Shown: piece by piece, positions 7,322 through 8,087 of the stretch
How positions within the stretch are numbered: the first letter of the stretch is position 1
Layout of the letters: every line of letters starts with the position of its first letter
Source: Cetobacterium sp. ZOR0034
GTDB taxonomy: Bacteria > Fusobacteriota > Fusobacteriia > Fusobacteriales > Fusobacteriaceae
Reading direction: 5' to 3'
Length of the DNA stretch: 38,105 nt
NCBI RefSeq assembly: GCF_000799075.1
Contig: NZ_JTLI01000024.1
Coordinates: 1-38,105, forward strand
The notes under the pieces: generated by a model
What the model was told of the DNA's origin: nothing
The model's input: only the letters and a program-made list of their open reading frames with translations
Databases searched by the model: none
Made by a program: the position numbers and the translations under genes

Positions 7322-7331
7322 TTTTTACCTC

Positions 7332-7514
7332 CTAAATTTTTTGCATAAAAAAAGGAATATGAAAATCATATTCCTTGTCTATATTAATATTAAAATTAAA
7401 AACTAAAAAATTAAAAAATATAAATAAATCATTAGAAAATGAAATAAATAAATCTAAAAATAACAAATAGTTTTTCTGTTTCTGTCTAACTCTTGTGTCA
7501 TTTTTGTAAACCAT
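7332..7514 (-). CDS. carAB leader peptide, 60 codons (attenuation ORF)
   Basis: This small ORF starts with ATG at 7512-7514 behind a strong AGGAGGG site that lies within about 25 nt of the predicted transcript start. It stops with TAG 10 nt before the carA ATG, overlapping the carA ribosome binding site region. The product is not protein-like: it is Phe/Leu/Ile/Asn-rich (12 Phe in 60 by my count). Its codons fall in an extremely U-rich tract: 59 of the 90 nt at 7381-7470 are U, with only 7 G or C, and the ORF then runs straight through a terminator hairpin. I infer a leader ORF whose translation couples to transcription, as for E. coli pyrL in pyrBI. It is probably regulatory rather than a functional protein. 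Two early Arg codons (8 and 10) leave an arginine-sensing alternative open but weak. Confidence 0.7.
   Translation of the reverse strand: MVYKNDTRVRQKQKNYLLFLDLFISFSNDLFIFFNFLVFNFNINIDKEYDFHIPFFMQKI
7347..7376 (-). terminator. Attenuator hairpin in the carAB leader
   Basis: A perfect 11-bp stem (7352-7362 with 7366-7376) around a 3-nt loop is followed on the minus strand by a run of seven U. It lies between the carAB promoter and carA and inside the leader ORF, so it would abort carAB transcription unless a closely following ribosome prevents folding. Confidence 0.88.
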
Positions 7515-7546
7515 ATTTCACCCTCCTTTTTTTTGCTCTGAGAAAA

Positions 7547-7575
7547 AGTATATACTAAAATTAAAAACTTGTCAA
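7547..7575 (-). promoter_or_regulatory. carAB promoter
   Basis: On the minus strand, consensus -35 TTGACA (7570-7575), a 17-nt spacer and -10 TATACT (7547-7552) place the start near 7540. The leader ORF begins about 26 nt later. It is divergent from the plus-strand promoter at 7593, with 17 nt between the two -35 boxes. Confidence 0.82.
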
Positions 7576-7592
7576 TTTTTATTTTTTTACTC

Positions 7593-7621
7593 TTGATATA
7601 TTACCGTTTACGTTGTAATAT
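7593..7621 (+). promoter_or_regulatory. Promoter of the GrdX-family gene
   Basis: TTGATA (7593-7598), a 17-nt spacer and TAATAT (7616-7621) lie 40 nt before the ATG. The AGGAGG site at 7650-7655 sets the start. Confidence 0.7.
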
Positions 7622-7661
7622 TACTACTGAAAATTCTATTCAAAAAAGCAGGAGGTTTTTT

Positions 7662-8045
7662 ATGGATTATAAAATCATTACAAATAACAATAAAGTTTTT
7701 AATTTCTTCAAAGAAACAGATAATGTAATTTACTTAGAGAACCACAATATCAACCAAGTATTGAATTACATAGAACAAAAATGTCTTGAAGGTCATAGGC
7801 TTCTAAGTGATCCTATCCTATATAATTTAGAAAATCAAGATAATCCTTTTAAATCAATACTAATAACAAATAAACAAATTGAAGATAACTCTCACTCTAT
7901 TAAAATTATTCTTGGAGTTTTAGATATTGTTAAAAAAGTTAGTTTCACTCCTAAAGAAGAGCAGTCAGACATATCTTTAGAAGAATTTAGGTTTGTTGAT
8001 TTGAACCTAATCAGAGATAGCATCTCTAAAATAAATTTACTTTAA
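7662..8045 (+). CDS. GrdX family protein
   Basis: The 127-aa cytoplasmic protein resembles GrdX, a small protein first named in glycine reductase operons whose biochemical role is not established. Supporting features are the N-terminal IITNN, the central GHRLLSDP and the following NPFKSILIT, matching the family's GHKLLTHP and PYKS-type segments in order and spacing. The start is ATG at 7662 behind AGGAGG. A longer in-frame opening from 7569 lacks a ribosome binding site and would span the promoter. No glycine reductase, thioredoxin or selenoprotein gene is nearby. It is monocistronic, with its own promoter and terminator. Confidence 0.72.
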   Translation: MDYKIITNNNKVFNFFKETDNVIYLENHNINQVLNYIEQKCLEGHRLLSDPILYNLENQDNPFKSILITNKQIEDNSHSIKIILGVLDIVKKVSFTPKEEQSDISLEEFRFVDLNLIRDSISKINLL

Positions 8046-8059
8046 TTTCACTTATTTTT

Positions 8060-8087
8060 GGATAGGTCATTTACCTATCCTTTTTTT
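8060..8087 (+). terminator. Terminator after the GrdX-family gene
   Basis: GGATAGG (8060-8066) pairs with CCTATCC (8074-8080), followed by seven T. Confidence 0.9.

Follow-up and report, generated by a model that had tools for sequence, protein, structure and literature searches.

A U-rich leader reading frame running into a terminator-like hairpin ahead of carAB in Cetobacterium, a likely translation-coupled attenuator of pyrBI type

Premature transcription termination on pyrimidine genes is familiar from the PyrR-dependent attenuator (RF00515). In the pyrL leader of the Escherichia coli pyrBI operon, RNA polymerase runs through and terminates when UTP is plentiful, whereas at low UTP it pauses on a template that requires U, and the coupled ribosome prevents the hairpin from folding (PMC10135430). 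Concerning carAB, attenuation by pyrimidines has been suggested in Pseudomonas, and the idea is therefore not new for carAB as such (PMC4997734). Pseudomonas has in common with the locus described below a terminator ahead of carA and, in P. aeruginosa, a leader peptide; no leader start codon was found in P. syringae. The lineage is a different one, and the available portion of that paper describes no U-rich tract. The carAB operon of E. coli responds to UTP, a property that our locus may have in common with it, through tandem promoters, DNA-binding proteins and UTP-dependent reiterative initiation; the text of that source does not use the word leader (PMC6245113). The initial annotation of our locus knew of no description of a pyrBI-like device for carAB in its lineage, and none of the literature matches listed, judged by title and abstract, concerns leader attenuation of carAB or pyrB in Fusobacteriota. 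A Fusobacteria genome has been screened for structured RNAs, and the carA motif reported in that study occurs in beta-proteobacteria (PMC8632094). In the main text of a paper on dRNA-seq and term-seq in F. nucleatum, neither carA nor words beginning with attenuat- occur (PMC11005410).

The DNA examined here, referred to as the window, is a stretch of 38,105 nucleotides of contig NZ_JTLI01000024.1 from Cetobacterium sp. ZOR0034. Its minus strand contains carA (7321-6269) and carB (6226-3020), identified with NCBIfam as the genes for the small and large subunits of carbamoyl-phosphate synthase, with a P-type ATPase gene downstream. The nearest named relatives by CarA are Cetobacterium, with 97-99% identity. 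On the same strand upstream of carA, the initial annotation had pointed out a consensus promoter followed by a 60-codon ORF with a strong ribosome binding site (RBS), and both were confirmed. The sigma-70-type promoter TTGACA-17-TATACT (7575-7547) matches the consensus at 11 of 12 positions; reading of the sequence placed the Shine-Dalgarno sequence AAGGAGGG at 7528-7521, and the ORF listing together with the sequence gave an ORF from ATG to TAG at 7514-7332. The hand count of 59 U and 7 G+C at 7470-7381, in the second half of this ORF, was exact, with A at the other 24 positions; we propose this tract as a UTP-sensitive pausing region. A hairpin search and folding identified a terminator-like hairpin of 11 bp with a loop of 3 nt at 7376-7352 (-11.2 kcal/mol). 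A stem of 11 bp and a tail of 7 U had been claimed together. Each is present, but not both at once: the 7-U run (7353-7347) has two U inside the stem, and the structure is therefore either 11 bp with 5 U or 9 bp with 7 U. Termination would be expected near 7347. With three G-C pairs among the 11, the hairpin is weak, and we counted this against an attenuator. The leader stop codon (TAG, 7334-7332) lies 10 nt ahead of carA, as had been noted, and overlaps the carA Shine-Dalgarno sequence AGGAGG (7333-7328).

The claim that the parts of pyrBI stand here in the order of pyrBI held up, and as a positive control E. coli pyrL-pyrBI was found with the same detector at the same settings. Features in common are the RBS, a short ORF with a U-rich stretch, an intrinsic terminator inside the ORF, the lack of an antiterminator signal and a structural gene beginning a few nucleotides past the leader stop. 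The differences are the phylum, the position ahead of both carAB and pyrB, a leader peptide that matches no Pfam family at E 0.001, and a leader whose stop codon in our sequences mostly falls within the hairpin. In the 75 nt that precede the hairpin, U makes up about 55% in the carA leaders studied here and 33% in E. coli pyrL; 49% is given for the pyrL template (PMC10135430). Rfam searches over the window, and at low threshold over the leader, gave no cis-regulatory family at the gathering score, with just weak matches to unrelated small RNAs.

When both strands of the window were compared, 7470-7381 was the U-richest 90-nt stretch. The leader's 75-nt maximum of 52 U was reached by none of 11,227 sense stretches from window ORFs of at least 150 codons; its 30-nt maximum is not unique, being matched by two of 11,662 stretches. 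Nor is extreme U-richness alone unique in the genome. In a 371-kb sample, five contig-strands contained 59 U or more in 90 nt, and the richest stretch of each was non-coding, antisense, or within an ORF without an RBS. A stretch of the same genome, L286:16027-16116 (+), is richer than the carA leader (65 U in 90) and lies outside ORFs of at least 40 codons. Among the 267 RBS-bearing ORFs of the 371-kb sample, six matched the architecture, ahead of five genes, with U fractions of 0.20-0.32.

The presence of carA was searched for in 100 relatives. A match was obtained in 92, some merely weak amidotransferase matches. From the matches listed, 90 CarA places were taken and combined with the window; of these 91 loci, L089 (cut at a contig edge) and L082 (a duplicate of the window) were removed, leaving 89. 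Two C-terminal CarA pieces (G052:C4 and G097:C36), one doubtful match (G061:C16) and the weak amidotransferase matches were left out of the census. The loci were divided by identity, with no tree, into the clade of the window (clade 1, above 52% identity to the window's CarA) and a second group (51% or below). A first look at 18 loci, the window and 17 Fusobacteriaceae-like ones that were named or came from MAGs, had revealed a leader ORF with a terminator at 17 of the carA genes, L016 lacking one. In the census, an RBS-borne leader ORF of 31-71 codons, whose end lies at a terminator hairpin upstream of carA, within it or shortly past it, was present at 59 of the 62 clade-1 carA genes among the matches listed, and at none of the 27 of the second clade among these matches. 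The exceptions in clade 1 were L115 and L123, from one genus, and L170, from another family. Also among the matches listed, a carA leader occurs in 14 of the 16 genera of the window's CarA clade (hand count) and, counted by genome, in 51 of 61 genomes of family f1, here called Fusobacteriaceae, including the window's own genome; F. mortiferum (L007) has one. All leader counts refer to sequences from related genomes and are not independent. The initial annotation had proposed to align related carA leaders, and the outcome was as it predicted: the ORF, the U-richness and the hairpin are kept, and the peptide drifts. A promoter within two mismatches was found ahead of 60 of 77 related carA and pyrB leaders; among shuffled upstream regions the number was 5 of 77.

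In four genomes (G019, G024, G035 and G042) a second-clade carA adjoins an ornithine carbamoyltransferase gene and has no leader, and the other carA copy has one. The neighbor was identified by family search for L143 and L146 and by equal gene order for the other two genomes; from a reading of their first residues, the remaining neighbors appear to be further arginine genes. Two clade-1 carA genes, each with its own leader, were seen in G015, G045, G057 and G058 (L117 with L122 in G015; L095-L097 with L137-L139). The detector also fired ahead of carA in Clostridium (L025, L030, L032, L034, L035 and L057). These leaders were not counted, because they are not U-rich (0.29-0.45) and because L035 has a sub-threshold match to the PyrR RNA element upstream of carA (36.6 bits against a gathering score of 54); the PyrR gathering score was reached by none of the six.

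The U content of the leaders was compared with that of other sequences. In the 75 nt before the hairpin, the mean was 0.549 for 54 unique carA leaders and 0.494 for 23 pyrB leaders, compared with 0.286 in 13,184 sense windows, among them some spurious ORFs, and 0.322 before 135 gene-end terminators, whose maximum was 0.52. The 99th percentile of the sense windows (0.453) was reached by 51 of the 54 carA leaders and 15 of the 23 pyrB leaders, the other 8 pyrB leaders falling below it; L134, a clade-1 carA leader, has 21% U. In carA leaders the U fraction is about 0.58 beside the hairpin and declines to 0.28 at a distance of some 110 nt, where A becomes the prevailing base. Ile codons are AUU in 170 of 279 cases in the leaders versus 2476 of 7398, and NNY codons end in U in 804 of 866 cases versus 11988 of 15860. 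As A+T content is equal for U and A at the third position of Ile codons, the preference for U suggests that U is selected for in the RNA. The unique fusobacterial matches of the detector were 77 carA or pyrB leaders, two pyrK leaders and two others that are not U-rich (L008 and L164), a tally that shows only that neighboring genes rarely fire, since the loci had been chosen for carA or pyrB. At L008:2986 (-), a short ORF is joined to a strong hairpin (-20.4 kcal/mol), and the gene behind it is presumably a formate-tetrahydrofolate ligase gene.

We then considered the reading frame. The leader frame was open in all 77 selected leaders, a figure inflated by the fact that the detector selected leaders for an ORF; the expectation from dinucleotide shuffles is 2.5, and the other two frames were open in 6 of 154 cases. 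The carA census is free of this fault, as its genes were chosen regardless of an ORF. Among eight Cetobacterium leaders, internal gaps were multiples of 3 in 21 of 21 pairwise runs, which represent few events, all in L092. L112 and L138 each have a single 1-nt indel near the hairpin that moved the stop codon, which is still at the hairpin. The peptides differ widely between genera; on reading, many begin with basic residues and are hydrophobic in the middle. Of the 54 unique carA leaders, 46 have their stop codon within the hairpin (38 in the 5' arm or loop, 8 in the 3' arm), 7 have it past the hairpin and 1 has it ahead of the hairpin; for the 23 pyrB leaders the four numbers are, in this order, 8, 11, 3 and 1. 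At most of these positions a ribosome would presumably mask some of the hairpin. The initial annotation had described the ORF as running through the terminator to a point near carA. This holds for the window, but not family-wide, as it applies to 7 of the 54 unique carA leaders, namely five near relatives including the window, L105 and L117. Our best reading is a family-wide coupled attenuator of pyrBI type, of which the leader that reads through to just before carA would be the near relatives' version.

The device had been described as standing ahead of carAB. It does, but it is not peculiar to carAB, as pyrB of this genome has it upstream as well. On contig C61 (L208), a pyrB-pyrK-pyrD-pyrF-pyrC-pyrE operon has its own leader of 41 codons with a hairpin; the leader has just 40% U over its last 75 nt, and no Rfam cis-regulatory family reached the gathering score at L208. 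Among 45 genomes examined, a pyrB leader was found in 26 (24 by script and two, L212 and L222, missed by the script and found on reading), 23 of them in f1 and three in f4, the second family with the device, which we guess to be Leptotrichiaceae. In three genomes pyrB lies downstream of carAB, and in 16 it has no leader: 13 of genus g17, two of genus g11, and G030, which has PyrR. The g11 genomes (G021 and G032) have the device at neither carA nor pyrB and are without PyrR, and the 13 g17 genomes are without a pyrB device and without PyrR. A pyrK leader was present at two loci, L015, where PyrK was confirmed by family search, and L017, where the gene was identified by its similar start. Among 30 uracil permease loci (L234-L263), a U-rich leader is present at one, L249 in G013; the other matches there are not U-rich. 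The L249 uraA leader is an ORF of 44 codons (U 0.53) with a hairpin, and G013 has no pyrB match. In the window's genome, the pyrB leader (L208:6427-6596) has 17 nt (ATTTTAATATTAATATA) in common with the carA leader, shortly ahead of the hairpin. Of 13 genomes tested, four, each from the same genus as the window, had a motif of 15-17 nt common to both leaders, and this candidate was discarded.

The PyrR protein model gave a weak match in all 61 genomes searched and passed the cut-off in two, G018 and G030. The PyrR RNA element was detected in three, over the cut-off in G030, just below it in G018, and weakly in G027 (38.8 bits against a cut-off of 54). In G018 (L206) and G030 (L224), which belong to one genus, the element stands ahead of pyrR, pyrB and carA, and carA (L147 and L148) has no U-rich leader. 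G027 has both carA and pyrB leaders, with the PyrR RNA match elsewhere. The window's genome has neither a PyrR RNA match nor a PyrR protein over the cut-off, unlike a system built on RF00515.

The arrangement is genuine and conserved, and it goes with pyrimidine genes. The leaders have the features of the pyrBI class: an RBS-borne ORF right after the promoter, an ORF that enters or spans a predicted terminator just before the gene, a U-rich tract between start codon and terminator (with exceptions such as L134), a position ahead of carA, pyrB and pyrK and, on pooled leaders, no competing antiterminator helix. We predict with good confidence that the carA leader is a translation-coupled transcription attenuator likely sensing UTP in the manner of E. 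coli pyrBI, the same arrangement heading the genome's own pyrB and the carA of most sampled family members. Action as a coupled attenuator is likely; UTP as the signal, and likewise the role of the ribosome, is our best inference. UTP would be sensed by way of the speed at which RNA polymerase moves, probably with no regulatory protein of its own. At low UTP, the polymerase would pause in the U-rich tract, allowing the first ribosome to close up. When the polymerase resumes, the ribosome, still translating or standing at a stop codon inside the hairpin, would cover the 5' arm; the terminator could then not fold and carAB would be transcribed. With plentiful UTP, the polymerase would outrun the ribosome, the hairpin would fold and transcription would end near 7347. 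The leader peptide itself is predicted not to matter.

The leader might instead be an amino-acid attenuator, in which a ribosome stalled by scarce charged tRNA at Phe, Asn or Ile codons decides termination. Phe, Ile, Leu and Asn codons do dominate, Asn and Asp reach 1.67 and 2.64 times the expectation from nucleotide shuffles, and a U-run leader read as Phe has been proposed ahead of aroF in Acholeplasma (PMC8632094). However, Phe is just 1.13 times expectation, which indicates that the codons follow mostly from the U-richness; moreover, the U excess reaches synonymous sites and the genes are pyrimidine genes. The 77 pooled leaders also gave no antiterminator signal. Pairing of the leader with the 5' arm of the hairpin was no better than in shuffles (mean z -0.05, with 3 of 77 at p<=0.05), making a classical antiterminator unlikely. 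The window leader alone gave p=0.15 in this test, which has low power for single leaders: among E. coli leaders thrL was clearly positive, and trpL (p=0.24), leuL (0.10) and hisL (0.07) were weak cases, with pyrL at 0.76. Taking these results together, we regard control by an amino acid as unlikely. We think it quite improbable, too, that a coupled attenuator reports general translation capacity or elongation rate and not UTP, with the U-tract merely slow or unstructured. In E. coli, trailing ribosomes suppress terminators that lie shortly downstream of a stop codon (PMC4824070), and any leader of this kind would therefore respond to ribosome lag; yet the U-rich cases of the architecture in our sample stand only ahead of pyrimidine genes, and none of the other architecture matches in the window's genome is U-rich.

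A protein or small RNA binding the U-rich leader RNA could in principle control termination, the tract serving as a binding site, and with the hairpin left out the folding of the 77 leaders is indeed slightly more stable than that of shuffles (mean z -0.90, with 15 of 77 below -2). We judge this very unlikely, considering that 59 of 62 clade-1 carA genes retain an RBS-borne frame that ends at the hairpin while the RNA sequence drifts, that PyrR protein exceeds the cut-off in just two of 61 genomes, and that the window leader has no Rfam family at the gathering score. The basic start and hydrophobic middle of many peptides would suit a small membrane protein, which, like a plain constitutive terminator, would have no regulatory role. 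Dissimilar peptides between genera, lengths of 31-71 codons, the lack of a Pfam family for the window's peptide and the tie to pyrimidine genes make either of these extremely unlikely.

Returning to the coupled attenuator responding to UTP, a broader proposal seems to us about evenly balanced. In Fusobacteriaceae and part of a sister family, pyrimidine synthesis may form a multi-operon regulon without a regulator protein, in which the leaders of carAB, the pyrB operon, pyrK and, once, uraA would use polymerase speed on the U-tract as a UTP meter, the number of U setting the threshold of each operon. It would be a convergent counterpart of enteric pyrBI, in the place that PyrR has in Clostridium. 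If true, the enteric pyrBI switch would be a recurrent solution, used for several operons in another phylum that includes the animal-associated Fusobacterium. Dozens of leaders with varied U counts and stop positions would then represent a natural series for measuring how polymerase and ribosome stay synchronized, and there would be a simple account of how pyrimidine genes are controlled in the absence of PyrR.

On the plus strand of the window, a divergent gene of the GrdX family (7662-8045) has its upstream region in common with the carA promoter. The GrdX model covers residues 36-152 of the ORF 7569-8045, the start at 7662 being a reading from the sequence. A terminator-like hairpin is present downstream of this gene at 8060-8080.
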